Assembly (NCBI RefSeq): GCF_000262465.1
Contig: NZ_CM001489.1
Coordinates: forward strand, 909,772-973,771
Direction of reading: 5' to 3'
Source: Frankia sp. QA3
GTDB lineage: Bacteria > Actinomycetota > Actinomycetes > Frankiales > Frankiaceae
DNA: 64,000 nucleotides
Each line of letters begins with the position of its first letter. Within the stretch, counting starts at the first letter, position 1. The notes beneath the pieces were generated by a model. That model was not told the origin of the DNA. It did no database searches and worked only from the letters and a program-made list of their open reading frames with translations. A program made the position numbers and the translations under genes. Below, piece after piece: positions 92 through 53,575 of the stretch.

Positions 92-147
92 CGGGCGAGG
101 TGGCGGCTGATCACCAGGCGCTGGATCTGGTTGGTTCCCTCGAAGAT
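92..147 (+). repeat. Left attachment site (56-bp direct repeat)
   Basis: These 56 bases are identical to 52310-52365, and similarity continues patchily to 159. Read on the minus strand they encode the acyl-CoA dehydrogenase C-terminus (IFEGTNQIQRLVISRHLAR), ending ARG-stop here and ARS-stop at the right copy. It is a copy of the dehydrogenase 3' end left by element integration, and serves as the junction between this element and the one to its left. Confidence 0.85.
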
Positions 148-32756: not shown

Positions 32757-35700
32757 ATGCGGGTCTTCGACATACATGCGGGGCTGATCAAGGACTATTC
32801 GGACTTCACGGACTCGCTGGTGCAGGTGCGGGACGGTCGGATTGCCGCGCACCTGGCCGACGAGCGGGAGCGGAAGGTCCGGTGGCCTGACCCGTGGATC
32901 TCGCTGAACCCCACCTTCGCGTCGGGTGGCTCGATTGACGATCTTGTGCGCGACGAGGTCCTGCATCCCAACTGCGGGCGATACTTCCGGGCGAAGCGTG
33001 CCGAGGACGATCCGGGCCGCCGGTCGCTGGCGCTCTACCAGCATCAGCGTGAGGCGGTTGAGGCGGCGCAGAACCGTGGCAGCTATGTGCTGACGACGGG
33101 TACCGGATCGGGCAAGAGCCTGGCGTACATCGTCCCGATCGTCGACGCGATCCTCCGCGCGCCGCGGGAGGACCGGATTTCGGCGATCGTCGTCTACCCG
33201 ATGAACGCGCTGGCGAATAGCCAGCTTCACGAGCTGACCAAGTACCTGTCGTGGGGCGTCCCTCAGGCGGATCGTAAGGTGACGTTCGCTCGGTACACCG
33301 GGCAGGAGTCGGCGGCGGACCGGGATCGGGTGTTCCAGCGGCGGCCGGACATCCTGCTGACGAACTACGTGATGCTGGAGTACCTGCTGACCCGGCCGCA
33401 CGAGCGGCAGGTGCTGATCGGCGCGGCTCGCGGCCTGCGTTTCCTGGTGCTCGATGAGCTGCACACCTACCGGGGGCGGCAGGGCGCGGATGTGGCGTTG
33501 CTGGTGCGCCGGCTGCGGGAGGCGTGCGCGGCGCCGGAGATGAAGTGCGTTGGAACGTCGGCGACGATGGCGACCGCGACGACGTTCACCGAGACGCAGG
33601 CGCAGGTGTCACAGGTCGCGAGCCGGCTGTTCGGGGTCGATGTCGAACCGTCCGCGGTCATTGGTGAGACGTTGCGGCGGGCGACCGAAGCGCGCACGCC
33701 GTCCGACTCCGAGCTGGACAAGGCCATCGCGACGGCCGTCGCCCTGGCCGCGGAACGCGGACAGGTCGGCGGGCTCGAGGCCGTCGGGGGACGGCCGTAC
33801 GGCGAGCTGGCGAGCGATCCGTTGGCGATCTGGGTCGAGGACATTTTCGGGCTCGAGACCGACGAGAACGACGGCCGGTTGAAGCGGCGCGCGCCGACGA
33901 CGCTGCCGAAGGCCGCGGCCGAACTCGCCCAGCGGACGGGGCGGGCCGAGCAGGAGTGCGCCGCCGCGATCAGCGCGATGCTCGCCGAGGGCGCCGCGGC
34001 GCGCGAGCCGGAGACGGAGCGGCCGCTGTTCGCCTTCCGGTTGCACCAGTTCCTGACGAAGGGCGACACGGCCTACGTCAGCCTTCAGCCGCCGCAGACA
34101 CGGCGGATCACAAGCCAGTACCAGGTGTCGGTGCCCGGCCAGCGGGACTGGCCGCTGCTGCCGCTCGCGTTCTGCCGGGAGTGCGGACACGAGTACCTGG
34201 AGGTCACCCGCGTCACCGACGCGGACGGCGTCCGCTACCTGGCCCGCACGGGTACGACGGCTGCCCAGGAGAACGCGGACCCGGGCTACCTCTACCTCGC
34301 CTCGGACGATGACCAGGACGCGGTCTGGCCGGACGATCCGGTGGCCGCGGGCCGGATCCCGGACACCTGGCTCGACCCGGCGAGCACCCGCGGTCCGAAG
34401 GTCCTCCCACGGCTTGTCGAGTATCTGCCGAAGACGGTCTGGGCGGGCACCGACGGCCGTGAGACACCGCCGGGCGAGGGCACTCAGGCATGGTTCGTCG
34501 CGGTCCCGTTCCGGTTCTGCCTGCGCTGCCGGGTCTCCTACGAGCAGCCGAGAATCAAGGACTTCGCGAAGCTGGCCACGTTCGCCGCCGAGGGCCGCAG
34601 CTCGGCGGTGTCGCTGCTGAGCGTGAGTGTGCTGCGCGGCCTGCAGGCTCAGGAGGACCTGAAGGAGTCGGCTCGCAAGCTGCTGACGTTCGTCGACAAC
34701 CGGCAGGACGCGAGCCTTCAGGCGGGCCATCTCAACGACTTCGTCCAGGTCACGCGGCTACGCGGCGCCCTGTGGAAGGCGGCGGCTGCGGCCGATGAGC
34801 GCGGTCTGCGCCATCACGAGGTGGCGGAGAAGGTCACCGACGCGCTCGACCTGCCGCTCCGGTCGTTCTCCAGGATCGAGGACCCGCGGTTCAGTCAGAA
34901 GGACAACGTGCTGCGGGCGCTGCGCGCCGCGGTCGCCTACCGGATCTACGCGGATCTGGAGCGCGGCTGGCGGGTGACGATGCCGAACCTGGAGCAGACC
35001 GGCCTGCTGCTGTTCGACTACGTCGACCTTGCCGAGATCGCGGCGGAGCAGGACCTGTGGGCCGATACGCATGGCCTGCTGCGCGATGACAGCGCGCGGC
35101 ACCGGGCGCAGCTGGGCCGGATCCTGCTGGACGAGATGCGCCGGGCGCTCGCGGTCGAAGCGGAGGTGCTGACCCAGGCGGGTCACGAGCGGCTGCTCAC
35201 CTCCAGCGACCAGCTCCTGAAGGGCGTGTGGGCGATTCCGTCCGGCGAGCCGCGGGTCAACGAGCGGACGATGTTCGCCTCGGCCGGCACGAAGGGCGGT
35301 CCCCGCGACGCGGTGCACATCACCGCCCGGGGCGCGTTCGGCCGCTATCTGCGCCGTGCGGGCGAATTCCCGCACGCACAGAGCAAGGTGACGATCGGCG
35401 ACGCCGACGGCATGATCGGCGATCTGGTCAAGGTACTCGTCCGGCACGGCCTGATCGCGGAGGTCGACGGACCGCGCGGGACGCGGGGTTACCAGATCCG
35501 TTCGTCGACGTTGATCTGGCGGGCCGGAGATGGGACGCGGGGCGCGCCGGACCCGCTGCGCAAGATGGTCGACGACGACACCGGCATGCGCGTCAACACG
35601 TTCTTCCGCGATCTCTACCGTTCCGGGGCGTCGGATCTGAACGGACTGCTGGCCGCCGAACACACCGCGCAGGTCCCGGCGAAACGTCGCCAGGAGCGGG

Positions 35701-38027
35701 AGGAGGCGTTCCGCCTGGGCGGTGACCCGGACAAGGGCGGGCTGCCGCTGCTGTACTGCTCGCCGACGATGGAACTCGGCGTCGACATCGCCGAGCTGAA
35801 CGCGGTGGCGATGCGCAACGTGCCGCCGACCCCGGCGAACTACGCGCAGCGCTCCGGCCGGGCGGGCCGATCGGGGCAGCCGGCGCTGGTCACGACGTAC
35901 TGCTCGACCGGCAGCGCGCACGACCAGTACTACTTCCGCCGCTCCCATCAGATGGTCGCCGGCAGCGTCACCCCGCCGCGGCTCGACCTGAAGAACGAGG
36001 ACCTGGTCCGCTCGCACGTTCACGCGATCTGGCTGGCCGAGACCGGCGCGAGTCTCGGCCGCAGCCTCACCGACATCCTCGCCGTCGAGGAAGGGCCCCG
36101 CGGCGCGCTGCCGCTCCCGGTCCACCTGCACCTCGCCGCGCAGCTCACCGACCCGGACGCGCGGCTGCGGGCCTCGGCAGCCGCGGCCGCCGTGCTCACC
36201 GGCGACGAGATCCATGCGGCGGGCTGGTGGCACGACGGCTGGATCGACGACGTCATCCAGGCCGCGCCCCGAGCATTCGACGCCGCCTGTGACCGGTGGC
36301 GCGACATGTACCGGGCCGCGGTCGAGGACCAGCGGGAACAGAACCTGCGCGTCCTCGACCGGTCGATGGCCTCGCCGAGCCGGGACCTGGCCCGCCGGCG
36401 CCGGTACGAGGCCGAGGAGCGGATCAAGCTGCTGACGAACGAGGCGGAGGAGACCCCGTTCTCCGACTTCTACTCGTACCGCTACTTCGCCTCCGAGGGT
36501 TTCCTGCCGGGTTACTCGTTCCCTCGCCTGCCGCTGGCGGCCTACATCCCCGGTGAGCGGGGCGGCCGGACGGGCGGCGACTACATCCAGCGGCCTCGCT
36601 TCATCGCGGTCGCCGAGTTCGGCCCGGGCGCGCTGATCTACCACGAGGGTGACCGCTATCAGGTGACCCGCGTCCAGATTCCCGGTGGGCTCAACGCCGC
36701 CGGCGACATCGCGACGACCGAGGCCCGGCTCTGCGGGGAATGCGGCTACTGGCACGACCGCGGCGTCGGGACGAACCGCTGCGAGGAATGCGACGCTCTG
36801 CTGAGCACGCCCATGCCGGGGCTGATGCACCTGCAGACCGTCACGACGCAGCGGCGCCGGCGGATCTCCTCGGACGAAGAGGAACGCCGTCGCGCGGGTT
36901 TCGACCTGCTGACGACTTACCGGTTCGCCACCCACGGCCAGCGCCCTGGCCGCCTCGCCGCGACGATCGAGCCAGCAGAAGGCGGCTCAGGAGCGCTCGC
37001 GAGCCTCGTGTTCGGGGATACCGCCACCGTTCGGGTGATCAACCAGGGGCTTCGTCGCCGCAGCCGCAAGGACCAGCTGGGGTTCTGGCTCGACCCGGTC
37101 AACGGCCGTTGGATCACGGAGAAGAAGGCGACGGGGGAGCCGGTCGCGGAGGAGTCCGAGCTGGCGGACTTCGCTGACGACCTGCGGGCCCGCAAGGTCG
37201 TCCCGTTCGTCGAGGACCGGCGCAACATCGCCGTGATCCGCCTCGCTACTCCGGTCGACGAAGCGACCGCGACGACGCTGCGCTACGCGCTGGAACGCGG
37301 GATCGAGACCATGTTCCAGCTGGAGGACTCCGAGCTGACCAGCGAGGCACTGCCCGACAACGCGGGCCAGGGCCGGTTCCTCCTGATCGAGAGTGCGGAG
37401 GGCGGCGCCGGCGTACTGCGTCGGCTGCACGACGAACCGACGGCTCTGGCCGAGGTCGCGGCCAAGGCGTTGGAGCTCATCCATTACGACCCGAAAACAG
37501 GTGAGGACCTGGGCCACGCCCCGGGGGCGCGGGAGCGGTGCGAGCGAGGCTGCTACGACTGCCTGCTGTCCTACACGAACCAGACCTTTCATCTGGGAAT
37601 CGACCGGCACCTCGTCGTCGACTTGCTCCGCCGGTTCGCCAGTGCCGAGACCGTCCGACACCAGGGCCATCCAGACGGACCGGACGGCCACGCCGGCGAA
37701 CTGGCCGAGCGGGCCGAGTCGGATCTGGAACGCAAACTGCTGACGTTTCTTCGAGACGGAGGCTTTCGGCTACCAGACGCCGCGCAGGCCATGGTCGACG
37801 GGGCGTTCGCCCGGCCGGATTTCGTGTATCACCTGAGTTCTGGCCCCGTCGCGGTGTTCGTGGACGGGCCGCACCATGACGCCGCTCCGGTCGCGGAGCG
37901 CGACGCGGCGGCCGAGGACCGACTGGCCGACCTGGGCTGGCTCGTGGTCCGGTTCCGCTATGACGAGGAGTGGGAACAGGTCGTGCACGCCAACGCGAAC
38001 GTCTTCGGCACCGGGCGGGCTTTCTGA
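32757..38027 (+). CDS. DEAD-box/DUF1998 helicase with C-terminal nuclease-like domain
   Basis: A 1,756-residue protein. Helicase lobe 1 has TTGTGSGKSLAYIVPIVDAI (Walker A near 114-121), VLDELHTYRGRQGADVALLV (DELH near 233) and CVGTSATMA. Lobe 2 has CSPTMELGVDIAELNAVAMR near 1001 and QRSGRAGRSGQ near 1033. Zinc-type pairs occur at FCRECGHEY, FCLRCRVSY, LCGECGYW and RCEECDALL (near 1325-1341), and CERGCYDCLLSYTNQ near 1594 marks DUF1998. The last 90 residues have a PD-(D/E)xK-like pattern: RPDFVYH, then AVFVDGPHHD near 1700. The plan resembles DruE of Druantia, MrfA/YprA, or fused DrmA and DrmB of DISARM. The next gene overlaps by one base. Confidence 0.85.
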   Translation: MRVFDIHAGLIKDYSDFTDSLVQVRDGRIAAHLADERERKVRWPDPWISLNPTFASGGSIDDLVRDEVLHPNCGRYFRAKRAEDDPGRRSLALYQHQREAVEAAQNRGSYVLTTGTGSGKSLAYIVPIVDAILRAPREDRISAIVVYPMNALANSQLHELTKYLSWGVPQADRKVTFARYTGQESAADRDRVFQRRPDILLTNYVMLEYLLTRPHERQVLIGAARGLRFLVLDELHTYRGRQGADVALLVRRLREACAAPEMKCVGTSATMATATTFTETQAQVSQVASRLFGVDVEPSAVIGETLRRATEARTPSDSELDKAIATAVALAAERGQVGGLEAVGGRPYGELASDPLAIWVEDIFGLETDENDGRLKRRAPTTLPKAAAELAQRTGRAEQECAAAISAMLAEGAAAREPETERPLFAFRLHQFLTKGDTAYVSLQPPQTRRITSQYQVSVPGQRDWPLLPLAFCRECGHEYLEVTRVTDADGVRYLARTGTTAAQENADPGYLYLASDDDQDAVWPDDPVAAGRIPDTWLDPASTRGPKVLPRLVEYLPKTVWAGTDGRETPPGEGTQAWFVAVPFRFCLRCRVSYEQPRIKDFAKLATFAAEGRSSAVSLLSVSVLRGLQAQEDLKESARKLLTFVDNRQDASLQAGHLNDFVQVTRLRGALWKAAAAADERGLRHHEVAEKVTDALDLPLRSFSRIEDPRFSQKDNVLRALRAAVAYRIYADLERGWRVTMPNLEQTGLLLFDYVDLAEIAAEQDLWADTHGLLRDDSARHRAQLGRILLDEMRRALAVEAEVLTQAGHERLLTSSDQLLKGVWAIPSGEPRVNERTMFASAGTKGGPRDAVHITARGAFGRYLRRAGEFPHAQSKVTIGDADGMIGDLVKVLVRHGLIAEVDGPRGTRGYQIRSSTLIWRAGDGTRGAPDPLRKMVDDDTGMRVNTFFRDLYRSGASDLNGLLAAEHTAQVPAKRRQEREEAFRLGGDPDKGGLPLLYCSPTMELGVDIAELNAVAMRNVPPTPANYAQRSGRAGRSGQPALVTTYCSTGSAHDQYYFRRSHQMVAGSVTPPRLDLKNEDLVRSHVHAIWLAETGASLGRSLTDILAVEEGPRGALPLPVHLHLAAQLTDPDARLRASAAAAAVLTGDEIHAAGWWHDGWIDDVIQAAPRAFDAACDRWRDMYRAAVEDQREQNLRVLDRSMASPSRDLARRRRYEAEERIKLLTNEAEETPFSDFYSYRYFASEGFLPGYSFPRLPLAAYIPGERGGRTGGDYIQRPRFIAVAEFGPGALIYHEGDRYQVTRVQIPGGLNAAGDIATTEARLCGECGYWHDRGVGTNRCEECDALLSTPMPGLMHLQTVTTQRRRRISSDEEERRRAGFDLLTTYRFATHGQRPGRLAATIEPAEGGSGALASLVFGDTATVRVINQGLRRRSRKDQLGFWLDPVNGRWITEKKATGEPVAEESELADFADDLRARKVVPFVEDRRNIAVIRLATPVDEATATTLRYALERGIETMFQLEDSELTSEALPDNAGQGRFLLIESAEGGAGVLRRLHDEPTALAEVAAKALELIHYDPKTGEDLGHAPGARERCERGCYDCLLSYTNQTFHLGIDRHLVVDLLRRFASAETVRHQGHPDGPDGHAGELAERAESDLERKLLTFLRDGGFRLPDAAQAMVDGAFARPDFVYHLSSGPVAVFVDGPHHDAAPVAERDAAAEDRLADLGWLVVRFRYDEEWEQVVHANANVFGTGRAF

Positions 38028-40945
38028 TGCCTCCGCAGACGGCAGCAGCCAGCAGTGCCATCGCCCCGGCGGGCGCGGCCACCTACCAGCCGGGCAGTGT
38101 CGTCGCGGCGCGCGGTCGGGACTGGGTCGTCCTCCCGGGTAGCGCCGCGGATCTGCTGATCGCCCGGCCGCTCAACGGCGACGAGGAGTTCATCGCCGCG
38201 CTGTTCCCGGATGAGATCAGCCCGGCCGCGTTCGCGCGACCGAAGGTCGGGCCAAATACGGTAGGTGATCACCAGTCCGCCCGGCTGCTGACGACCGCGT
38301 TGCGGCTCGGGTTCGACGCGGGCGCCGGGCCGCTGCGTTCGCTCGCCTCGGTGGCCGTCACGCCGCGCAACTACCAGCTGGTCCCGTTGCTGGTCGCACT
38401 GCGGCAGCCGACGGTGCGGATGCTCATCGGCGACGATGTGGGCATCGGTAAGACCGTGGAAGCTGGGCTGATCGCCAAGGAACTGCTCGCTCAGGGCGAC
38501 GCCACCGGTCTGACCGTGCTCTGCTCCCCGGCCTTGGCCGAGCAGTGGCAGCGGGAACTCGCGGAGAAGTTCGCGATCGAGGCCGAGCTGGTCCTTACTT
38601 CCACGGCGACCCGCCTGGAGCGGCTGTCCGGCGAAAAATCGATCTTCGAGAAGTTCCCGTTCACGGTCGTGTCGACCGACTTCGTCAAGGCCGATCGTCG
38701 GCGTGACATCGTTGCCCGTGGCTGCGCCGACCTGGTGATCGTCGATGAGGCCCATACCGTCGTCGGTGGCTCGTCGGTCGACCGCCACCAGCGCTTCGAC
38801 CTGGTCAGGCGGATCGCCGCCGACGAGAACCGCCATCTGCTGCTGGTCACCGCAACGCCGCACTCGGGCAACGACGAGGCGTTCCGCGCCCTTCTCGGCC
38901 TGGTCAAGCCGGATCTGGCGACGATCGACCTGGAAGACAGGATGAGCCGCGACCGGCTTGCGCGCTATTTCGTGCAGCGCCGCCGCAAGGACATCCGCAA
39001 GTTCATCGGCGAGGAGACGCCATTCCCCAGCGATCGTGACTACAAGGATCTGCCGTACGGGCTCGACGAGGACTACCAGACGCTCTACCGGGACACCCTC
39101 GCGTTCGCCCGGCAGATGGTCCGTACCGCCGATGGGGACCTGAAGAGGCGGATCCGCTGGTGGTCCTCGCTCGCACTGCTGCGCTCACTGGCCAGCTCCC
39201 CGGCGGCCGCCGTCGCGACCTTTGAATCGCGCTCCGGCCTCGACCTGAACATGTCCGACAAGGAGATCGAACAGCTGGGCCGGCAGGAGCATCTCGACCC
39301 GATGGACGATGACGCCGCCGATGGCGCCGACGTCCCACCGGGAGCAGACAACGAGACCCTTCCCGAGCCCGACCGGCAGCGGTTGCGCGAGCTCGGTAAG
39401 GCGGCGGCCAAGCTCGCGGGCAAGGACACCGACGCAAAACTCCGCCTACTGATCAAGACGGTAAAGGGATTGCTTGCCGACGGCTACAACCCGATCGTCT
39501 TCTGTCGGTACATCCCGACCGCGCACTACCTGCATGCCCAACTCGGCAAGGCCCTCGTCAGGAAAACGACCATCCGCTACGTCACCGGCGAGGACCCGCC
39601 CGCCGCGCGAGAGAAGGCCGTCGCCGAGTTCGGCGACGTGCCGGGCAAACGGGTCCTGATCGCCACCGACTGCCTCTCCGAGGGTGTCAACCTTCAGGAG
39701 AACTTCGACGCGGTGGTGCACTACGACCTGTCCTGGAACCCGACCCGCCATGAGCAGCGCGAAGGCCGCGTCGACCGGTTCGGCCAGCGCAGGGACATCG
39801 TCCGCGCCGTCACCCTCTACGGCCAGGACAACGGCATCGACGGCATCGTCCTCAACGTCCTGCTCTGCAAGCACCGTAAGATCGCGAAAAACACCGGGGT
39901 GGCCGTGCCCGTTCCCGAGGAGACCACCGGTGTCGTCAAGGCGCTGGTCAACCGGCTCTTCAGCGATGGCTCTGACGCCCTGCAAAGCCAGCAGCTCGCC
40001 CTCGACCTCGACCTGAACGACCTCGCACCGGACATAGACGAAGCCTGGAAGAGCGCGGCGGAACGGCAGAAGGGCGCCGCGACGAAGTTCGCTCACTCGG
40101 GCATCGCCGACGCCGACGTCGAACGGGTCCTCGCCGGTGTGCGGACCGCGATGGGCACCACCACCGAGGTTCGCAGCTTCGTCCGCGACAGCCTGGCCTC
40201 GATCGGCGCCCAGATCACCGCCGAGAACAACGGCTTTACTGTTTCGCTCGCCGGCCTGCGCCCCGCCGTCCGCGACGCCCTCGGCGTCCGTGACGACAAG
40301 GTCACGTCGGTCCGGTTCTGTGACGACCTGCCGGCCCGCCCCGGCCAGCGCCCGCTCGTCCGTACCGATTCCGCCGTGCGCGGGCTCGCCCGCATCATCG
40401 TCGAAGCCGCCCTCGACGACCAGCCGTCCGCGCTGCCCAGCGACGCCGAGGATGACCCGTGGGCCGGCACGGATCTCGGTACCCCGCCACCGGCGGCCCG
40501 ACTCGGCGTGTTCCGCGTCAGCACCGTGGCCACGCGCACCGTGCTCCTGCTGACCCGCTACCGCTTCCATCTGACCCTCCCGGGCACCGCCCGGGCGAAC
40601 ACCGTCGTCGCCGAGGACGCCCGGCTCGCCGGCTACCGCCGCGACCCCGACGGCAGCTTCAAGTGGCTCGACGACCAGGAGATCAAGGTGCTGCTGGCCG
40701 CGGAGCCGGACAACGCGCTGCCGCAACTCGTCCAGCGCCAGGCCGAACGCGCCGTCTCCGAACTCGCCGACGCCCAGCCGCACCTTGACGCCGAGGGCGC
40801 GGTGCTCGCCGCGGAGCTGCGCGCCGCGCACGCCGCTGCGCGCGAGATCGTCGGCGGGCGGACCCGCAGCCTCGACGTCCAACCTCATGAACACGCCGAC
40901 GTGCTCGGTGTCTACGTGTATCTGCCGGCCGGAGCCGCCCGATGA
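38027..40945 (+). CDS. SNF2-type helicase (DrmD-like)
   Basis: A 972-residue protein whose ATG 38027 overlaps the preceding stop (TGATG). It has the SNF2/RapA order of motifs: RMLIGDDVGIGKTVEAGLIA near residue 130, VIVDEAHTVVGGS near 237, LLVTATPHSGNDEAFRALLG near 275, and lobe 2 with VLIATDCLSEGVNLQENFDA and RHEQREGRVDRFGQRRDIV near 575. A long C-terminal region follows. Size and plan match DrmD of class 1 DISARM, where it is paired with DrmMI as here. It is predicted to move on DNA as part of phage restriction. Confidence 0.85.
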   Translation: MPPQTAAASSAIAPAGAATYQPGSVVAARGRDWVVLPGSAADLLIARPLNGDEEFIAALFPDEISPAAFARPKVGPNTVGDHQSARLLTTALRLGFDAGAGPLRSLASVAVTPRNYQLVPLLVALRQPTVRMLIGDDVGIGKTVEAGLIAKELLAQGDATGLTVLCSPALAEQWQRELAEKFAIEAELVLTSTATRLERLSGEKSIFEKFPFTVVSTDFVKADRRRDIVARGCADLVIVDEAHTVVGGSSVDRHQRFDLVRRIAADENRHLLLVTATPHSGNDEAFRALLGLVKPDLATIDLEDRMSRDRLARYFVQRRRKDIRKFIGEETPFPSDRDYKDLPYGLDEDYQTLYRDTLAFARQMVRTADGDLKRRIRWWSSLALLRSLASSPAAAVATFESRSGLDLNMSDKEIEQLGRQEHLDPMDDDAADGADVPPGADNETLPEPDRQRLRELGKAAAKLAGKDTDAKLRLLIKTVKGLLADGYNPIVFCRYIPTAHYLHAQLGKALVRKTTIRYVTGEDPPAAREKAVAEFGDVPGKRVLIATDCLSEGVNLQENFDAVVHYDLSWNPTRHEQREGRVDRFGQRRDIVRAVTLYGQDNGIDGIVLNVLLCKHRKIAKNTGVAVPVPEETTGVVKALVNRLFSDGSDALQSQQLALDLDLNDLAPDIDEAWKSAAERQKGAATKFAHSGIADADVERVLAGVRTAMGTTTEVRSFVRDSLASIGAQITAENNGFTVSLAGLRPAVRDALGVRDDKVTSVRFCDDLPARPGQRPLVRTDSAVRGLARIIVEAALDDQPSALPSDAEDDPWAGTDLGTPPPAARLGVFRVSTVATRTVLLLTRYRFHLTLPGTARANTVVAEDARLAGYRRDPDGSFKWLDDQEIKVLLAAEPDNALPQLVQRQAERAVSELADAQPHLDAEGAVLAAELRAAHAAAREIVGGRTRSLDVQPHEHADVLGVYVYLPAGAAR

Positions 40946-43900
40946 GCCGCCGCGACGACGAGAAGTTCACCGCCGTCACCCTCGAAGGCGGCTTCCTGCC
41001 GCCCCGCCTGCTGCGCCGCATCGTCGACGGCGACGTGGAACTCAAGGGCACCGACACGAAGACCTACGGCCTCGGCCTGAACGAGAACGTCAAACAGGCC
41101 GCCGCCCGGCACTGGACGCATCTGCGCGGCGTCTGGCTGAGTTTCCAGGAATGGCTCAAGGAGGAGTCTGCGAGCCATCAGGGCACCGCGTCGACCGAGG
41201 TCACCGCCGAACTCACCCGCACGCACTGGCTGCAGGCCCTCTTCTCGGTGCTCGACTACGGTTTGATCTCGCCGGCACCCCGCGACCGCACCCCGCAGGT
41301 CAGCCACCTCTGGCAGCACGTGCCGATACATCTCGTCAGCTGGAACCGTGGCCTCGATGAACGGTTCGGCAAGACCGGGCCAGGCTCCAAGGGCGAGCGC
41401 GCTCCGCAGGCGCTCCTCCAAGAGCATCTCAATGCCCGGCCCGAGCACCTCTGGGGAATTCTTTCCAACGGCCGAGACCTGCGGCTGCTGCGTGACTCTT
41501 CGGCGCTCGTCGGTGCTGCTTATCTGGAGTTCGACCTCCAGGCCATCTTCGATGGCGAGCTGTTCGACGAGTTCGCCCTTCTCTACGCCACGCTGCACGC
41601 CTCCCGCCTCACCGTCCAGCCACGCGACGATGGCACTCCAGGCACCCCGGCCGACTGCTGGCTCGAACGGTGGCGGACCTTCGCCCACCAGACCGGCATC
41701 GAAGCCAAGGACAAGCTGCGCGAGCAGGTCCGCAGGGCCCTCGAAGAACTCGGCACCGGTTTCCTCGAAACCAACCCGGCGCTGTGCGACAAGCTGAAAG
41801 CCGGCCGACACAACGGCGGGATCTCCGCGGCTGACTTCGAGCACGAGTTGCTCAGGCTCGCCTACCAGATTCTTTTCCTCTTTGTGTCCGAGGACCGCGA
41901 TGCTCTGCTCATCCCACTGCCGCCGGACCCAGACAGGCCCATCGGAGTAGGTGTCATCCCCGGGCCGAATTCCGCGCGTGGTCGAAGCCGCCGCGACCTG
42001 GAGCAGGCCCGGGACCGTTACCTTCAGTACTTCTCCACCAAGCGGCTGCGCCGCATCGCCGACGCCCGCCTCGGCGACCGGCACGGCGACCTCTGGCGCG
42101 GCCTCGTTGTCGTCCTCGATGCCCTCGGTACCGAAGGTGGCAGGCCCGAACTCGCCCTCCCCGAACTCGGCGGCCTCTATCTACGAGCCGACGACCCCGA
42201 CGCGCCCCGCAGCGCTGCCGATGACGCTCTCATCAGCCGGCCCGACGAACTGCGTGACTACCAGCTACCGAACAGCCGCCTCCTCGCCGCGGTCCGCCTG
42301 CTCAGTCACGTACCCGACGACCGCGGCCGCCTCCGCCGCGTCGACTTCGGGCACCTCGGCGCCGACGAACTCGGCAGCGTCTACGAATCCCTGCTCGAAC
42401 TCGTCCCGCGCCCCGACCTGCCCAGCCGCACGTTCACCCTCGTCGAGATCGCCGGCAACGACCGCAAGACCACCGGCTCGTACTACACCCCGACCGTCCT
42501 CATCGACTCCCTGCTCGAGTCGGCCCTCGACCCGGTCATCGATGACTACGCTCGTGGCGGCGCCGACAATCTGCTGAAGCTGACCGTCTGCGACCCGGCC
42601 TGTGGCTCCGGCCACTTCCTGGTCGCCGCGGCCCGGCGCATCGCCCTGCGCTATGCCCAGATGTACACGGGCGATGCGGAGCCGACCCCGGCCGCGTTCC
42701 GCTTCGCCCTCGACAAGGTCGTCCGTTCGTGCGTCTACGGCGTGGACCTCAACCCGCTGGCCGTCGAACTGACCAAGGTCTCCCTCTGGTTGGAATCCCT
42801 TGTCCCCGGCCGGCCACTTGCCTTCCTCGACGGCCACATTCGCGCCGGCAACGCCCTGCTGGGAGTGACGCCGCGGATGCTGCAGTCCGGGATCCCGGAC
42901 ACGGCCTACAAGTCGCTGGAGGGCGACGACTCGGCCTGGGCGACCCACCTTCGTAGCGAGAACCGGTCGAAACGTTCCCAGCAGATCGAAGCATTCGAGG
43001 TCGATCCCACCAGGCTGAACAACGCCAGCCTCGCCGAGAGCGTCGCACGGATCGACCAGATCGGCGCCCGGTACGACCTGACCCTCGCCGACATGCGCCA
43101 GCAGACCAGAGCGCAGCGCGAACTGGACGACTCGCCGGATCGGCGCCGCCAGGTCCTGGTCGCCGACGCCTGGTGCGCCGCGTTCTTCTGGCCCAAGCGG
43201 GAGAACGCCCCGCAGGCAATCACCAGCGAGACAGTCCAGCAGCTCAGCGACGGCACCCTGACTCCCGACCCGGTCCGCGACGACCTGCGGCGCAAGATCG
43301 CCCTGCGCAACCGCTTCTTCCACTGGCACCTCGAGTTTCCCCAGATCTTCCAGGTGGACGCCGCATCCGTACCGGGCGGTCAGGACCCGGGATGGAACGG
43401 CGGCTTCTCCTGCGTCCTTGGGAACCCGCCCTGGGACCGGGTGAAAATCCAGGACAAGGAGTTCTTCGCCGCTCGCCGGGTCGACATCGCCGCCGCTTCC
43501 AACAAGGCGGCCCGCGAGCGCCTGATCAAGGATCTGCTGGCTAGCAAGGATTCGGTCGACCTCGAACTGCACACGGAGTACAAAGCCGCGAAGCGTGCGG
43601 CGACGTGCGAGTCGGAGTTCCTCCGTGGCTCGGGCCGTTTTCCCCGTACGGGCCGCGGCGACGTCAACACCTACGCCGTCTTCGCGGAGACCGCCCGAAC
43701 GCTCCTTGCCCCGGCCGGCCGCTTCGGCCAGGTCCTGCCCACGGGCATCGCCACCGACGCGACCACCGCACAGTTCTTCGGTGATCTCGTCGATGAGCGG
43801 GCTCTCGTGTCGGTACTCGACTTCGAGAACGAGGAGAAGCTGTTCCCGGGTATCGACCACCGGCTCCGCTTCGCGCTCGTGACGGTGAGCGGATCCCGTA

Positions 43901-45177
43901 CCCAGAACGAACATATCCGGCTCGCCTTCCGTGCACGCAAGGTCCCGGACATCGCCCACATCGAGTTCACACTGACACGCGAGGACATTGCCCAGCTGAA
44001 TCCGAACACGAAAACCTCCCCAGTATGCGAGAGCCCGAGGCATGCGCAGATCATTAAGGGAATCTACAACCGCCTGCCCGTCATCTGGCGAGACGCGCCT
44101 CCGGAAAATCCGTGGATGATTAGTTTTTTGACCCTGTTCCACATGTCGAACGACTCGAAGATCTTCGAGTGCCGCGAGGATCTGCAGGCCGATGGCTGGC
44201 GGCTGGTCTCCTCGGTCTTCGTCCGTGGGCCGGTCGACGGTCCGGACCGGATGATTCCGCTGTACGAGGCCAAGATGGTGCACCACTTCGACCATCGGTA
44301 CGGCACGTATGACGGCCAGACCGAGGCCCAAGCCAAACAGAATATCCTGCCCCCACTGCTAGGGAAGGAACGGTTGGACGGCGCCAGCGTCGTGCCGATG
44401 CCTCGGTACTGGGTGCCCGAAGACGCGGTGGAGAAGAAGCTGGCCAGGTGGGACCGGGGATGGCTGGTGGGATTTCGCGATGTGGCACGCGGCTCCGATG
44501 TTCGGACGATGATCGCATCGGCGGTCCCGCGTCTCGCGGTCGGTCACAAGCTTCCGCTGATGCTGTTCGGCCAGCGCGGCCACCTGCTGCTCGCGAACCT
44601 CGGCTCGTTCGTCTTCGACTACGTCCTACGTCAGAAGATGTCCGGCGCCTCGGTGAGCTATTTCCTGGTCAAGCAGATACCGGTGCTCGAACCCGGACGA
44701 TACGACGACCAGGCCAGCTGGCGGCCCGATGTCTCCCTGGACTCGTGGGTCACGGCCAGGGTGCTTGAGCTGACCTACACGGCCTGGGACATGCAGCCAT
44801 TCGCCAAGGACCTCAACGACGGCGGGCCGCCTTTCGTTTGGGACCCCGATCGTAGGTTCGTGCTGCGAGCGGAACTCGACGCCGCCTACTTCCGGCTGTA
44901 CGGCGTGGAACGAGCCGATGTTGAGTACGCCCTGACCAGCTTCCGGGCCTTCCGGAACAAGGAGCCCGAACTCTTCGAGGCGACCAGGAAGAAGATCCTC
45001 GCGGTCTACGACGAGATGACCCGCGCGGAGGAGACGGGCGTGGCGTTCCGCTCCGAGCTGACGCCACCCCCTGGGGAGGGTCTGCGGCATCCGGCGTCGA
45101 CCAGGCCAAAGCATGTCCTGGCGTCACGCCCTCCGACCGACACCCTCTTCTCGACCCTGGAGACCGGCAGCCCATAG
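40942..45177 (+). CDS. Large Eco57I-type N6-adenine methylase (DrmMI/PglX-like)
   Basis: A 1,411-residue protein; ATG overlaps the SNF2 stop (ATGA). The methyltransferase core has [40 protein letters not shown] near 548 and the catalytic [20 protein letters not shown] near 826 (NPPW). The N-terminal 450 residues and the C-terminal part ([19 protein letters not shown]) are as in Eco57I, PglX and DISARM DrmMI enzymes. It probably marks host DNA at an adenine site so that the helicase/nuclease partners attack unmarked DNA. There is no sign of a nuclease in this protein. Confidence 0.87.
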
Positions 45178-45305
45178 CCCAGCACACTCCGTCACACTGT
45201 AGTCGTGCACAGACACAACGCTGGGCCACAGAGTCTCCAGGTAGCTGCCTTAGGTGAATAATCTGCCCAGGCTCGCGGCGCGGTGGGCCGCTGGCGGTAC
45301 TGGGG

Positions 45306-47552
45306 GTGGCTGGGGTGCCCGTACGGATACAGGTCATGTCGCGGGTGATGCAGCTCGCCGTACGCTACCTGGTCTCGGCAGAGGCGCCTGTCCACCCGAG
45401 TCTGGTCTGGTCGAAGGTCCGGCAGCAGTATCCGGTCACCGACGAGCGTTACCCGACGGTCGATGACGAGTGGGCGGCGGCGACCAACGGGAAGACGACC
45501 GCGGAGCAGACGCTGCGCTGGACAAGCAGCGAGCTGGTCCGGGCCGGCTGGCTCGCCAAGACTCCTGAGGGCTGGCTGGCGACCGGAGTCGGCGAGTGGT
45601 CGCTGCGTGAGTATCCAGACCCTGTCTCCTGGCGCAAGGAGGCCGGGCGCCGGTATGCCGACTACCGGCGTGACAGGGATCAGTTCGACCTGGTCGAGGC
45701 GGAGCTCGCGGCCGTGCCGGCGGGCTACTGGGTTCGGGCCGGCGACCTGGCCGAAAGCGCCGATCTGCCGGCCGAACGTATTGTGCATTACCTGGTTGGG
45801 AGCCGGCCTGAAGGCTGGTTCCGTGCTCTTGACGTCGGCGGGCGGCTACCGAGGGATGCTCACGCCACGGAGCGAGAGCGAGCGGTGTGGCTGGGGCTCT
45901 TGGAAGCAGACGGCATCGACATCGTCACGGGTCGGGCCGATGCGTTGCGCCAGCTCGCCGGGGCGGACCTACGCGCTGTCGTCGGCGAGGCGGACGGCGG
46001 GGACGACGACGTCGCGGGCGTGCTGGAGACGGAGCAGGCGCGGCGCGCCTGGCTGGTTCGACCGCCATCCCGGCGGGACGCGGTCCGCGGCGAGTGGCTT
46101 CCGGATGCGGTGTGCGCGTTGCCAGTCGACCTGCTTCCCCAACTGCGGCCGGGAACGGGACGCAGCGTGGTGGCCGACGCGGTCGAGGCGACCTACCCGA
46201 AGCGACGGTCCGACCAGCGGCTGCGGCTAGTCGACGACATCTACGCGTTCCTCAGCCGGATCTCCATCGGAGATCTGGTCCTGACCAACTTCGGCGCGGA
46301 TTTCTATGTTGGCGAGATCACCGGCTCGCCGTACTACTTCCGGAACCCGGAAAGTCCCGCCGGGGCCGTCCTCGAGCTACGGCGTACTGTCCGCTGGCGC
46401 AATCCGCGCGACCCGCTCGACTTCGCCGACGACCTCTCCGGCCCGCTCGCGGCCGCTGTCGCCGTTCCAGACCAGTCGGTCATCGATCTGAGCGATTTCC
46501 TGCCCGAGCTCGTCGGGCGTGTTCAGGGCGAGGCTCTCACCCTGAGCGGTTTGGCGGCGGGCGGCATAGTCAATGTCGGGGCAGGGGAAGCCCGAGGGCC
46601 ATCCGCAGACCCGACCATGGCGGCGGCCGGACTCCTGAACGTCGGCGACGACAGGCTGGAGGCGTTGGCGGCGCGCCTGCACGTCGACGATGACTGGTTG
46701 CGGCGCTGCCTGCGCCTCCTGCGGCTCAAGCCACAGATGATCTTCCAGGGTCCACCGGGTACCGGGAAGACCTTCGTCGCGCGCGAACTGGCCCTGCACC
46801 TCACCGGCCAGAAGCGGGAGAACATCGCGTTCGTCCAGTTCCATCCTGCGTACAGCTACGAGGACTTCATCCAGGGGTACCGGCCGCGTGGCGAGGCGGG
46901 TGGTGACGGGTCGATCCGGTTCGAGCTGGTCTCGGGACCGCTGGTCCGCCTGGCGCAGGCGGCGGAGGAGCATCCCGACGAGCCGTTCTTCGTCATCATC
47001 GACGAGATCAACCGGGGTAACCTGGCGAAGATCTTCGGGGAGCTGTACTTCCTGCTGGAGTACCGCGACGAGGTCGCCTACCTGCTCTACCGGCAGGAAG
47101 ACGGCCGTCCGTTCTCTCTTCCGAAGAACCTGTTCATCCTCGGCACGATGAACACCGCCGACCGGTCGATCTCCCGCCTGGACGCGGCCGTCCGCCGCCG
47201 GTTCCACTTCGTCACCCTCGACCCGGCGGAGGAGCCGACCCGGTCCCTGCTGCGCACCTGGCTCACGGCCCAGTCACTGTCTGCCCAGCCGGCGGATGTG
47301 CTCGACGAGCTGAACCGCCGTCTCGATGCGAAGGATGGCTTCACAGGCTCGCGCGTCGGCCCGGCGTACCTGATGAAAACCGAGTTGTACGCGGACGGCA
47401 TCGATGCCGGACTCGACCTGGTCTGGCTGACGCAGATCGAGCCACTGCTCGAGGAGTACTTCTACGGCGATGACGAGACCGACGTGCACCACGAGTTCGG
47501 CCTGGACGCGCTGCGGCAGACTGCCATACCGCCACAGTCCGCTGGCGCCTGA
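45306..47552 (+). CDS. mcrB: McrB-like AAA+ GTPase
   Basis: A 748-residue protein. GTG 45306 is used here; ATG 45336 is an alternative. The N-terminus has a winged-helix-like Mrr_N segment (MQLAVRYLVSAEAPVHPSLV). The middle contains EVE/PUA-like stretches such as LTNFGADFYVGEITGSPYYF. The McrB motor follows: IFQGPPGTGKTFVARELALH near 479, FVQFHPAYSYEDFIQGYRPR, FVIIDEINRGNLAKIFGELY near 562 and the guanine-specific GTMNTADRSISRLDAAVRRR near 613. McrB assembles on modified DNA through its N-terminus and drives McrC cutting. It follows the methylase after 128 bases and precedes McrC. Confidence 0.9.
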   Translation: MAGVPVRIQVMSRVMQLAVRYLVSAEAPVHPSLVWSKVRQQYPVTDERYPTVDDEWAAATNGKTTAEQTLRWTSSELVRAGWLAKTPEGWLATGVGEWSLREYPDPVSWRKEAGRRYADYRRDRDQFDLVEAELAAVPAGYWVRAGDLAESADLPAERIVHYLVGSRPEGWFRALDVGGRLPRDAHATERERAVWLGLLEADGIDIVTGRADALRQLAGADLRAVVGEADGGDDDVAGVLETEQARRAWLVRPPSRRDAVRGEWLPDAVCALPVDLLPQLRPGTGRSVVADAVEATYPKRRSDQRLRLVDDIYAFLSRISIGDLVLTNFGADFYVGEITGSPYYFRNPESPAGAVLELRRTVRWRNPRDPLDFADDLSGPLAAAVAVPDQSVIDLSDFLPELVGRVQGEALTLSGLAAGGIVNVGAGEARGPSADPTMAAAGLLNVGDDRLEALAARLHVDDDWLRRCLRLLRLKPQMIFQGPPGTGKTFVARELALHLTGQKRENIAFVQFHPAYSYEDFIQGYRPRGEAGGDGSIRFELVSGPLVRLAQAAEEHPDEPFFVIIDEINRGNLAKIFGELYFLLEYRDEVAYLLYRQEDGRPFSLPKNLFILGTMNTADRSISRLDAAVRRRFHFVTLDPAEEPTRSLLRTWLTAQSLSAQPADVLDELNRRLDAKDGFTGSRVGPAYLMKTELYADGIDAGLDLVWLTQIEPLLEEYFYGDDETDVHHEFGLDALRQTAIPPQSAGA

Positions 47553-48817
47553 TGTCCAGCCCCGCTGCGCCCACACCGACCGGACGTTTGGTGATCGACC
47601 TGGCGGAGTACGGCAGCAAGGAGCACCGGCTTAGCCCCGGGCAAGTCGCAGCACTGAAGGGAGCCGACGCCGTAGAAGTGACTCCTCTCGGTGCGGGTCG
47701 ATACAAGGTGAAGGCGAAGGCCGAGGTCGGCTCGGCGGCCTTCGGTACAGGTCCGGACACCGTGGTTGTGCGGATTCGCCCGAAGGTGACGATCGGTCGG
47801 CTGCTCTTCCTGCTCGGCTATGCCCAGGACAAAGGCACGTGGCAGAAGGAGGAGGTCGAGGTCGACGAGGCCGAGGACCTGCTGCCGGCCGTTGCGCGGT
47901 CCTTCACCCGTGCGATCCAGCAACGTGCCTTTGCCGGAGGTCTGCTCTACGGCTACCGGCCGGTCGAGGATGACCTGATGACGATCCGCGGCCGGGTCCG
48001 CTCCGACGAGATGCGCCGCCGCCACTGGTCCGGGCCCGCGATCCCCTGCGAGTACGACGAGTTCACCGTGGACATCGCGGAGAACCGGCTGCTCCTCGCC
48101 GCCGCCCGGCGGCTGCGTGCCCTCCCCGGCATCATTCGACCGACCAGGATGGCGCTTCGCGAGATCATCGACGAGCTCGTCGACGTCACCCCGCTTGGCC
48201 GTGGTGAGTCCCCACCGACGTGGACACCGAGCGCCCACAACGCTCGCTACTGGACGGCACTGGGCCTCGCCGAAATGATCCTGCGCGGTCACTCCTATGA
48301 GTATGGCGGCGGCGCAGGCCCGACGACCGTCCGGGTCGACGGTTTCCTGGTGACGATGTGGACGGTGTTCGAGGCCTTCGTCACGAAGGCTGTTCGCGAC
48401 GCGCTCCTGCAGCCGCCAACCGGCCGCGTGCCGGGCCGCCACGTCACCTTCCAGGACGAGACCCACCACTTGGACCGGGCAGGTCTGGTGAAACTGAAGC
48501 CCGACCTCATCTGCTATCAGCAGGCCTCGACCGGCCGACGGGTCCCTGTTGCCGTCCTCGATGCTAAATACAAGATCGAGAAGAAGGCTGACAACCCCGA
48601 CACGATCTACCAGTTGCTGGCGTACTGCACCGCCCTCGGCCTGCCCGCCGGTCACGTCGTCTATGCCGGCACCTCGACCGAAGTCCGCCGCACCTACACC
48701 CTCACCACCGGCACGACGATCACCTTTCACCCTCTGGATCTGACCGCCGAACTGTCCATCCTGCGCCGCCAGATCAACGAGATCGCCTCGCTCATGGCGC
48801 CAGCTCCAGGCGCGTAG
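47552..48817 (+). CDS. mcrC: McrC-like nuclease subunit
   Basis: A 421-residue protein; ATG 47552 overlaps the McrB stop (TGATG). The N-terminus includes VVVRIRPKVTIGRLLFLLGY and FTRAIQQRAFAGGLLYGYRP, as in McrBC 5-methylcytosine systems. The PD-(D/E)xK core is LKPDLICYQ near residue 315 and PVAVLDAKYKIEKKADNPDT near 332 (D...DxK), followed by DTIYQLLAYCTALGLPAGHV. McrC stimulates McrB GTPase activity and cuts DNA. This closes the five-gene defence run. Confidence 0.9.
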   Translation: MSSPAAPTPTGRLVIDLAEYGSKEHRLSPGQVAALKGADAVEVTPLGAGRYKVKAKAEVGSAAFGTGPDTVVVRIRPKVTIGRLLFLLGYAQDKGTWQKEEVEVDEAEDLLPAVARSFTRAIQQRAFAGGLLYGYRPVEDDLMTIRGRVRSDEMRRRHWSGPAIPCEYDEFTVDIAENRLLLAAARRLRALPGIIRPTRMALREIIDELVDVTPLGRGESPPTWTPSAHNARYWTALGLAEMILRGHSYEYGGGAGPTTVRVDGFLVTMWTVFEAFVTKAVRDALLQPPTGRVPGRHVTFQDETHHLDRAGLVKLKPDLICYQQASTGRRVPVAVLDAKYKIEKKADNPDTIYQLLAYCTALGLPAGHVVYAGTSTEVRRTYTLTTGTTITFHPLDLTAELSILRRQINEIASLMAPAPGA

Positions 48818-50399: not shown

Positions 50400-50654
50400 A
50401 TGAGCCGGTCGGCGGGGTCCGGGCAGGGGAGGAAGTAGCCGGTTCGGGTCGATCAGCGGGTTCTGCTGACTCTCGAGCAGGTGCTTGTGGAGCTTGGCGG
50501 GCCGGACGGGCCGTTGCCGCGGTCGACTTGGTCTGACTGGCAGCGGAAGGGGACCGGGCCTAAGGTCATCAAGTTGCCGAACGGGCAGATCCGGGTCGCT
50601 CGTGACGATCTGAATGCCTGGCTTGACGGCCTGACCCGTGACCCGGCCCGATGA
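50400..50654 (+). pseudogene. Excisionase-like HTH frame interrupted by TAG
   Basis: The frame starting ATG 50400 reads 12 codons (MSRSAGSGQGRK), meets TAG at 50436-50438, then continues VLLTLEQVLVELGGPDGPLP, RSTWSDWQRKGTGPK and LPNGQIRVARDDLNAWLDGL to TGA at 50652-50654, overlapping the integrase ATG. The HTH part is the usual excisionase found before actinomycete integrases. Downstream of the amber codon no ATG or GTG lies ahead of the helix-turn-helix, so it is either broken, started from a non-standard codon, or read through. Confidence 0.6.
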
Positions 50655-52282
50655 GCACCGGTACCTCCGGAGGGTCCGCTGGGAGCGGCGGGCTTGACGG
50701 GGACGGGGAAGAGCGGCGGATCTCGTTCGATGTCCGGGTGTGGGCTGTTCGTGAGGTGAAGGGGAAGAAGCGGTCGGCGTGGCAGGCTCGTTGGTCGGTT
50801 GCCGGGCGGCCGACGGCGAATGCCCGCTCGTTTGCCACGAAGGGGGCGGCTGAGGCGCGCCGGGCGGAGATCTTCACTGCGGTGAAGAAGGGGGAGGCGT
50901 TCGACGTCGTCACTGGGTTGCCGGTGCGTGAGGTGCTCGCCCAGCGGGCGGCGAAGCCGCCTCCGGCGCCGCGTTCATGGCTTGAGGTGGCGCGGGGGTT
51001 TACCGATGCGAAGTGGGAGGAGCGTCAGGCTCCTGGTAGTCGGCGTTCGATTGCGCAGGGGCTCAGCTCGATCACGGTTGCCCTATTCGACGCTCCCGTG
51101 CCGGCGGAGTTCGAGGAACTTGTCCGTGAGGCCCTGGCGGGCTGGTCGTTCAATACCGGCGTGCGCACCACGCCAGGCCGGGATGGTCGTAGCCGCGAGG
51201 TGCCGCCGCCTGACGACTGGGCGGGGGTGCTGGAGTGGATGGAGCGGCACAGCCGGCCGGTCACGGACCTGGCGGACCCGGAGGTCGCCCGCGCAGCCCT
51301 CGGGGCGCTGTCCCGGCGGATGGACAGCCGGCCGGCTGCGGGGAACACCATCGTCCGTCGGCGGCAAGTCTTCGAGATGGCGATCAAGTACGCCATGGCT
51401 CGTGGTGACCTCGATGCCAATCCGCTCACGGGGCTCGATTGGAGGCCACCGCGCAAGCTCGTCGCGGTCGACCGGCGCGTCGTCGTCAACGCCGACCAGG
51501 CGCGCCGCCTGTTCGCTGCCGTCGCCGAGCATGCTCCCGATCTTGAGGCCTTCTACGCCAGGATCTACCATGCGGCACTGCGGCCTGGTGAACTTCAGGA
51601 ACTACGCCTCGACCAGCTGACCCTGCCCGAGTCTGGCTGGGGTGAGGCGTTGCTGGATGGCAACAACCCTGAGATCTCGCCTCGCTGGTCCGACGCTCCG
51701 GACGGGCCGCGTCAGCCTCGCGAGCTCAAGCACCGGGCGAAAGGGGAGACGCGGCCGGTGCCGTTGAACCCCCGACTGGTCGCGATCCTGCGCCGCCACG
51801 TCGACACGTTCGGCATTACCGCAGATGGGCGCCTTTTCCGGTCTGGAAAGGATGGACCGGTGAAGGCGATCCGGTACCTGGCGAGGTGGCGGCAGGCCCG
51901 CGAGATCGCGCTCACACCAGCCGAGCAGGCGTCGCCGCTGGCGCGCCGGCCGTACGACCTGCGGCACGCCGCCATATCGGGCTGGCTGAACGCCGGAGTC
52001 CCGGTCACCCAGGCCGCGGAATGGGCAGGCCATTCCGTCCGGGTATGCATGCTCGTCTACGCGAAGTGCATCGCCGGCCAGGACGAGGCCGCCCGGCGGC
52101 GAATCGACGCTGCCCTGGCCGCCGAGAGCGACACGCCCGTGGTCCCGGCGGCTCCGGAGGCGGCGGATTCTCATCCACGTCTCATCCACAGCCAGCCGGA
52201 AACGACCGGACTGGACCGGACACCGCCGGGCATCACCCCGGCAGTGCCCGAACCGCCGACCGGTCCCGACTTGGAGTTCTGA
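50651..52282 (+). CDS. int: Tyrosine integrase of the element
   Basis: A 543-residue protein. An N-terminal arm-binding-like region has KKRSAWQARWSVAGRPTANA, then a core-binding SAM-like domain, then the catalytic domain. The first arginine lies in LRPGELQELRLDQL near 308, the HxxR equivalents in RPYDLRHAAISGWL near 434 and GHSVRVCMLVYAK near 460, with the tyrosine near 468. It recombines attP with the 3' end of the acyl-CoA dehydrogenase gene; the right attachment repeat starts 28 bases after its stop. The C-terminal 60 residues are Pro-rich, as in the related fragment at 2-64. Confidence 0.92.
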   Translation: MSTGTSGGSAGSGGLDGDGEERRISFDVRVWAVREVKGKKRSAWQARWSVAGRPTANARSFATKGAAEARRAEIFTAVKKGEAFDVVTGLPVREVLAQRAAKPPPAPRSWLEVARGFTDAKWEERQAPGSRRSIAQGLSSITVALFDAPVPAEFEELVREALAGWSFNTGVRTTPGRDGRSREVPPPDDWAGVLEWMERHSRPVTDLADPEVARAALGALSRRMDSRPAAGNTIVRRRQVFEMAIKYAMARGDLDANPLTGLDWRPPRKLVAVDRRVVVNADQARRLFAAVAEHAPDLEAFYARIYHAALRPGELQELRLDQLTLPESGWGEALLDGNNPEISPRWSDAPDGPRQPRELKHRAKGETRPVPLNPRLVAILRRHVDTFGITADGRLFRSGKDGPVKAIRYLARWRQAREIALTPAEQASPLARRPYDLRHAAISGWLNAGVPVTQAAEWAGHSVRVCMLVYAKCIAGQDEAARRRIDAALAAESDTPVVPAAPEAADSHPRLIHSQPETTGLDRTPPGITPAVPEPPTGPDLEF

Positions 52283-53451: not shown

Positions 53452-53532
53452 GGCGTGCCTCCAGGGATCGCACCGAGGAACGGGGAGTCGTCCGGCGCGT
53501 GCCGTGCGACGCAACGCCAACGGTACCGCACG

Positions 53533-53546
53533 GAGTACCTGGGTAC
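53533..53546. promoter_or_regulatory. Palindrome between acyl-CoA dehydrogenase and TetR genes
   Basis: AGTACCTGGGTACT has perfect 6-bp arms around a TG centre. It lies 30 bases before the tetR-type start and 82 bases before the dehydrogenase start in the other direction. By position it is the likely TetR operator controlling both genes. Confidence 0.55.
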
Positions 53547-53575
53547 TGTCCGGTGCTGGGGTAGATTGATCGATC

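Follow-up and report, generated by a model that had tools for sequence, protein, structure and literature searches.

The question raised by a five-gene operon of Frankia sp. QA3 is whether its helicases, methylase and McrBC genes form a variant of a known defence system, two neighbouring systems or one integrated system. The operon lies in a stretch of 64,000 nucleotides (contig NZ_CM001489.1, positions 909,772 to 973,771), hereafter the window, whose numbering is used throughout. Based on its gene content, its domains and the comparison with related loci, we conclude that the operon very probably encodes an ARMADA Type I restriction system in complete form, to which McrBC is added as an accessory module, and that an integrated mobile element carries it. 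The five genes are:

32757..38027, plus strand: gene 1, YprA-family helicase, ArmC-like, 1756 residues
38027..40945, plus strand: gene 2, reading frame open from the GTG at 37970 (991 residues as listed)
40942..45177, plus strand: gene 3, PglX-like N6-adenine methylase, ArmB-like, 1411 residues
45306..47552, plus strand: gene 4, McrB GTPase, 748 residues
47552..48817, plus strand: gene 5, McrC nuclease, 421 residues

These five open reading frames (ORFs) are real genes, on the same strand and almost contiguous, and the five consecutive plus-strand genes of the preliminary description are upheld by the ORF coordinates and by the guanine-plus-cytosine content at the third codon position, which is 0.83-0.89 in all five and matches that of real genes of the 7.59-Mb chromosome. 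The likely start of gene 2 is the ATG at 38027 (~972 residues), which gives a 1-base overlap with the stop of gene 1. Genes 2 and 3 overlap by 4 bases and McrB and McrC by one base, as had been described, and a gap of 128 bases separates gene 3 from McrB. A promoter and terminator scan of the operon gave matches at chance level only.

Three proteins define an ARMADA system, namely a YprA helicase, a second helicase of the BrxHII-like kind and a PglX-like methylase (Bell et al. 2025, PMC12458937). The YprA gene of Type I usually stands first and ends in a Vsr nuclease that is predicted to be active, and the OB region contains one zinc insert in Type I and two in Type II (PMC12458937). Type I is further described with a BrxA-like helical domain after RecA1 and, in RecA2, a CxxC beta-barrel and a MarR-like insert. 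By gene order and domains set against this published description, rather than by alignment to an ARMADA protein, we assign genes 1-3 to ARMADA Type I. The window operon shares with Type I the order YprA, BrxHII-like, PglX-like on one strand, the fusion of the helicase to OB-CON-DUF1998 in a single protein, the C-terminal Vsr-type nuclease predicted to be active, the single OB-region zinc insert and the carriage on mobile elements. It differs by the addition of McrBC as genes 4 and 5; the main text of PMC12458937 describes neither McrBC as a component nor Vsr loss beside McrC or HNH nucleases. The domains located in gene 1 are:

33039..33572, plus strand: RecA1 (DEAD) domain, residues 95-272, with the Walker A motif SGKS and a DELH box (Pfam)
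35013..35516, plus strand: winged-helix (MarR-like) domain, residues ~753-920, a predicted fold and suggestive
35643..35876, plus strand: RecA2 (Helicase_C) domain, residues 963-1040 (Pfam)
36732..36794, plus strand: CxxC...CxxC zinc-binding module in the OB region, residues 1326-1346, from sequence only
37278..37565, plus strand: MZB/DUF1998 zinc domain, residues 1508-1603 (Pfam MZB, 35.1 bits)
37713..38009, plus strand: Vsr-like nuclease domain, residues 1653-1751 (Pfam DUF559, fold match, motif survey)

The nuclease-like tail that had been noticed on gene 1 was confirmed by two kinds of search. The last 140 residues exceed the Pfam DUF559 cut-off (23.8 vs 20.6 bits), and the tail in the AlphaFold model, which covers residues 1190-1756 at a mean predicted local distance difference test score of 70, matches the Vsr endonuclease 1cw0 (Z 6.5 over 93 residues, 25% identity). 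All the predicted Vsr catalytic residues (E1658, D1688, D1703 and H1707) are present in the window gene 1. The OB-CON-DUF1998 canopy of the same model matches MrfA (6znp, Z 10.3) and DrmB (7s9v_B, Z 8.0). LuxS structures, too, match a portion of this DUF1998 canopy, with Z values of 7-8.5 on a par with DrmB, which may reflect a shared arrangement only. The RecA1 motifs are kept in nearly all homologues surveyed. The cysteines of the single OB-region zinc insert, here read from sequence alone, are likewise conserved among homologues. The best PDB matches of residues ~753-920 are winged helices of the MarR, Fur and ArsR types (Z ~5-6). A helical domain is predicted after RecA1 (residues ~317-414), for which the PDB gave no match, and further CxxC pairs stand at residues ~473-476 and 587-590, with the beta-barrel part of the model at low confidence. 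Many actinomycete loci (L045, L048, L052-L057 and others) show a putative N-terminal open extension of ~260-420 residues on gene 1, with an unproven start.

Gene 2 encodes an SNF2/RapA-type helicase, BrxHII-like and ArmA-like. Gene 3 matches the Pfam families Eco57I, N6_Mtase and MmeI, with NPPW and GxG motifs intact. The names DrmD-like and DrmMI-like given to these genes in the preliminary description hold in part: gene 2 is an SNF2 helicase with a match to DrmD, but it is not a bona fide DrmD (288 bits against the NCBIfam equivalog cut-off of 610), and gene 3 is an N6-methylase whose matches to the DrmMI-like PADLOC models are limited to the methylase core. The NCBIfam equivalog models of DrmD, DpdE, DpdJ and PglX match genes 1-3 only far below their cut-offs. 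The PADLOC model PDLC02853, labelled 'DpdE', covers gene 2 end to end (899 bits, E 7e-271), and it seems that what this model describes is the helicase of ARMADA, so that it would give loci of this kind a wrong name.

Several named systems share parts with the window operon, and the earlier reading of DISARM- and Druantia-like parts joined to McrBC, with no separate DrmA, DrmB or DrmC, was borne out by the profile searches. Class 1 DISARM has the SNF2 helicase, the N6 methylase and the YprA-type helicase logic in common with it, whereas the window operon fuses the DrmA and DrmB functions in one protein and lacks the phospholipase D nuclease DrmC. Druantia shares the YprA branch of gene 1 through DruE, whose type III form combines helicase and nuclease and acts on DNA with a 3' tail (PMC13192584); on the other hand, neither DruH nor any other Druantia partner was recognised, and the tail is of the Vsr rather than the phospholipase D type. 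That the operon is a class 1 DISARM or Druantia variant, as first proposed, is therefore very improbable: the PADLOC DruE models match gene 1 only in pieces (at most 307 bits) and DrmD and DrmMI models do match genes 2 and 3, but the DrmD score is far below the curated cut-off, there is no DrmA/DrmB split and no DrmC, and the gene order and the tail are those of ARMADA Type I. The DISARM and Druantia labels were rejected on these grounds. A 7-deazapurine (Dpd-type) system has next to no probability in spite of the end-to-end match of gene 2 to PDLC02853, since gene 2 reaches 195 bits against the 500 required by the NCBI DpdE model and no other Dpd biosynthetic gene was recognised in the part of the element that was scanned; the Dpd label was likewise discarded. 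The experimentally tested ARMADA Type II of E. coli (ArmA-D) has the three homologous protein types ArmA, ArmB and ArmC but a different order, BrxHII-PglX-YprA-ArmD, in which ArmD is a GajB-like helicase with a RelE domain; in the window gene 1 comes first and the operon has no ArmD.

For genes 1-3, the end-to-end match with a known protein having these partners, which the preliminary description had regarded as the mark of an already described system, was found: the homologues of gene 1 at loci with the same partners align end to end (36-52% identity over 97-100% of gene 1). The statement that the combination is not known as a named system does not stand, as genes 1-3 belong to a published type (PMC12458937) and a DISARM-like cassette frequently adjoining canonical McrBC has also been published (Bell et al. 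2024, PMC11090510; again in PMC12458937). That cassette (the green branch of Fig. 2 in PMC11090510) likewise has YprA/DUF1998, SWI2/SNF2 and PglX genes beside an NxxD-type McrB; there the association was only noted and left to later work, whereas it is quantified and tested in the current analysis.

The McrBC pair of the window has the features of the canonical NxxD type, namely an NTAD signature in McrB and a PD-(D/E)xK site in McrC, with scores under the NCBIfam full-length cut-offs. McrB matches the NCBIfam McrB model over its AAA core (168.7 bits, residues 478-633), which is also matched by the McrB structure 6hz4 (E 3e-51); its N-terminal residues 1-461 gave no Pfam family above cut-off, and the PDB search matched the AAA core only. 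McrC matches PF10117 (140.4 bits), with the D-D-K residues of its PD..DxK site intact.

The relation of this pair to genes 1-3 was examined through its distribution. In a sample of 394 genomes spanning the class, 33 have homologues of gene 1 (E <= 1e-50), and only 59 contain McrB as such (E <= 1e-30). At E <= 1e-150, the counts of genomes with gene 1 homologues in three families are 15/251, 29/200 and 31/151. A scan of the genome contigs with gene 2 gave one locus only. In virtually all actinomycete loci of sufficient length the three core genes stand in the same order, and 52 of the 74 determinable loci (~70%) have McrBC downstream and on the strand of the core, directly after the core in a dozen of the first 28 loci and after a few genes in others. 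Plasmid pNOCA01 of Nocardioides sp. JS614 has the same five annotated genes in the same order with all four junctions overlapping.

In 21 McrBC-linked loci, McrB and McrC agree with genes 1-3 in pairwise distance (correlation r 0.81-0.94), as genes 1-3 do with one another (0.84-0.94). After controlling for rpoB in a partial Mantel test these values are 0.76-0.92 and 0.81-0.92, and the host tree explains little of the distances (r 0.40-0.49). Thus, McrBC has long been co-inherited with the core, as closely as the core genes with each other. Simple vertical descent does not explain this match, since the genome also contains another complete ARMADA-McrBC operon (G000:C1:1517276-1533100; L006, L007), whose gene 1 is only 45-49% identical. 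The linkage and co-inheritance tests reject a chance neighbourhood of McrBC, which the preliminary description had considered. An origin of the linkage as one inherited event was also rejected, as the McrB tree needs several changes; the distance tests were relied on instead of this tree because it includes unlinked rows that are mis-extracted ORFs (G095, G171).

Some loci show further gene arrangements around McrBC and the core. In islands of the Streptomyces family (L048/L103, L053/L105, L052/L104, L059/L110 and L056/L108), McrBC stands apart from the core by 10-25 kb of other genes, and a conserved gene of ~711 residues often follows McrC. One locus of the same genus (L066, genome G088) has kept an intact McrBC beside a remnant of gene 1 (residues 1-216), with genes 2 and 3 gone, and is thus a case of core loss. 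In two islands without McrBC (L055/L107 and L057/L109), a second gene for a PglX-like methylase lies downstream of the core at a distance of ~11-13 kb.

The state of the Vsr site was then compared with the presence of a second nuclease in 87 loci with a readable downstream region, within a comparison that took in ~95 relatives overall, a scoring that leaves out several f17 loci (such as G873, G838, G848 and G821). Loci coded as lacking a second nuclease were searched for McrB, McrC and one HNH family only, most of them genome-wide for McrB; G860a counts as McrBC-bearing, based on an McrB ~10 kb downstream found in a whole-genome check. The Vsr site is broken in 46 of the 61 loci with McrC or HNH downstream and in none of the 26 without (Fisher p 6e-12, a value that ignores relatedness). 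When only losses of E or D are considered, and not of H alone, the counts are 33/60 vs 0/27, with G860a still among the loci without. Decay of the Vsr site is thereby confined to loci with another nuclease, for which the evidence is strong but not final. The site changed state at least 8 times on a gene 1 tree built with the tail left out, and a Pagel-type test of correlated evolution, a kind of test that can overstate few independent events, gave p 3.4e-5 (Actinomycetes alone 0.0017; 2.9e-4 with one locus disrupted by an insertion sequence counted against). The decay is specific to the Vsr tail, because the helicase, methylase and McrC active sites are intact in both classes of loci, that of McrC in every decayed locus tested.

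The HNH loci extend this pattern to an unrelated enzyme. Three Pseudomonadota loci with a broken Vsr site lack McrBC and have an HNH_2 endonuclease gene after the methylase. Before six further plasmid loci with truncated tail alignments were opened, the prediction that they would contain a second nuclease was written down. Four of them do, all as homologous HNH genes; in one of these, from Acinetobacter, the frame of gene 1 is itself broken. The remaining two loci are a Mesorhizobium relic without genes 2-3 and a Kozakia locus cut by IS21 right after the methylase. Hydrogenimonas, with an annotated HNH gene, and Chlorohelix, with an EVE-McrB and a DUF2357/PD-DExK McrC, also fit, and none of the loci with an intact Vsr site has the HNH homologue. 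This endonuclease gene, of ~240-265 residues, follows ARMADA-I-like cores on plasmids of Pseudomonadota and Campylobacterota (L138, L139, L141, L239, L240, L242, L246 and L248), and the main text of the ARMADA paper (PMC12458937) makes no mention of it.

A 2026 review (PMC12904381) counts the way in which ARMADA and DISARM-like systems restrict foreign DNA among the unknowns. What the computation shows is the gene content and order, the Vsr fold, the McrBC linkage and co-inheritance, and the Vsr decay pattern; the function as a whole is inferred as follows. Gene 3 would methylate host DNA at adenines, as its motif suggests. The gene 2 translocase and the gene 1 helicase would load on phage DNA that is unmethylated or contains single strands, by analogy with DrmAB, DruE and the genetics of ARMADA II, in which neither helicase nor the methylase is dispensable (PMC12458937). 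The DNA so bound may be cut by the Vsr-like tail of gene 1. McrBC would provide another nuclease, driven by GTP, either to cut phage DNA with modified bases or to do the cutting in place of the core. As both nucleases of the window are apparently intact, McrBC is there more likely added than substituted.

The role of McrBC can be read in two ways. With a probability close to even, ARMADA Type I and McrBC are independent systems, the one acting against unmethylated phage and the other against cytosine-modified phage, layered and co-transferred but sharing no parts; the decay of the Vsr tail would then reflect redundancy rather than replacement. This is consistent with the 128 bp that separate McrB from gene 3 in the window, but it has to accommodate a co-inheritance of McrBC with the core as tight as that within the core, an overlapping gene 3/McrB junction in JS614, and a decay of Vsr only beside another nuclease that is repeated with the HNH enzyme. 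More tentatively, McrC or HNH may be a replacement effector recruited by the ARMADA helicase complex to do the cutting of the Vsr tail. The trade-off between nucleases and the intact McrC site at decayed loci support such a role; however, recruitment by the helicase complex is putative, McrC normally needs McrB and GTP, and both nucleases are intact together in a minority of loci. The wider notion of an exchangeable nuclease slot, in which Vsr, McrC or HNH each serve as cutter of one helicase-methylase machine and McrBC is an ARMADA effector and not an independent type IV system, is put forward with the same reserve.

Some observations weigh against the reading of the operon as ARMADA Type I with an McrBC module. 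The ARMADA assignment was made against the published description, and profile and fold searches of gene 1 for a BrxA-like domain found no match, a negative that does not show the domain to be absent. McrBC is also found apart from the core, and copies with and without linkage to it are interspersed in the McrB tree; in loci of the Streptomyces family McrBC is often 4-25 kb downstream with other genes between. The occurrence of McrBC by itself, the mixed tree and the intervening genes also favour two independent systems. Independent-pair contrasts are ~4 for the association of Vsr decay with a second nuclease and 0 against, too few for significance. Besides, about a quarter of the loci bearing McrBC or HNH, the window included, keep an intact Vsr motif, so that replacement is not obligatory.

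The third part of the reading, the mobile element, is based on the following features:

92..147, no strand: left end repeat (att-like), 56 bp, a perfect match to 52310-52365
52310..52365, no strand: right end repeat, 56 bp, within the 3' end of the acyl-CoA dehydrogenase gene
52303-53769, minus strand: acyl-CoA dehydrogenase gene, with the insertion site at its 3' end
50651..52282, plus strand: tyrosine integrase (Pfam Phage_integrase 24.7 bits, just under the cut-off of 27.1)
20441-22540: TraD/TraG-type coupling protein, inside the element
13439-14605, minus strand: Toprim/primase-like gene, inside the element
15761-17449, minus strand: N6 methylase, inside the element

The perfect 56-bp repeats bracket 52.2 kb of the window (92-52365), with the integrase at one end, and DNA similar to this integrase is present in other genomes of the genus. 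The five-gene operon is cargo near the integrase end of this integrated element, in agreement with the mobile carriers reported for ARMADA.

Current detection models can misname loci of this kind as DISARM, Druantia or Dpd. The second operon of the same genome has a broken Vsr site and offers a natural comparison pair to the window operon. Overall, these results suggest that a methylation-based system can take in a type IV restriction pair as one of its parts, and which single mutation would abolish defence is predicted by the three natural classes of loci (Vsr only, as on a Rhodococcus qingshengii plasmid; Vsr with McrBC; decayed Vsr with McrBC or HNH).

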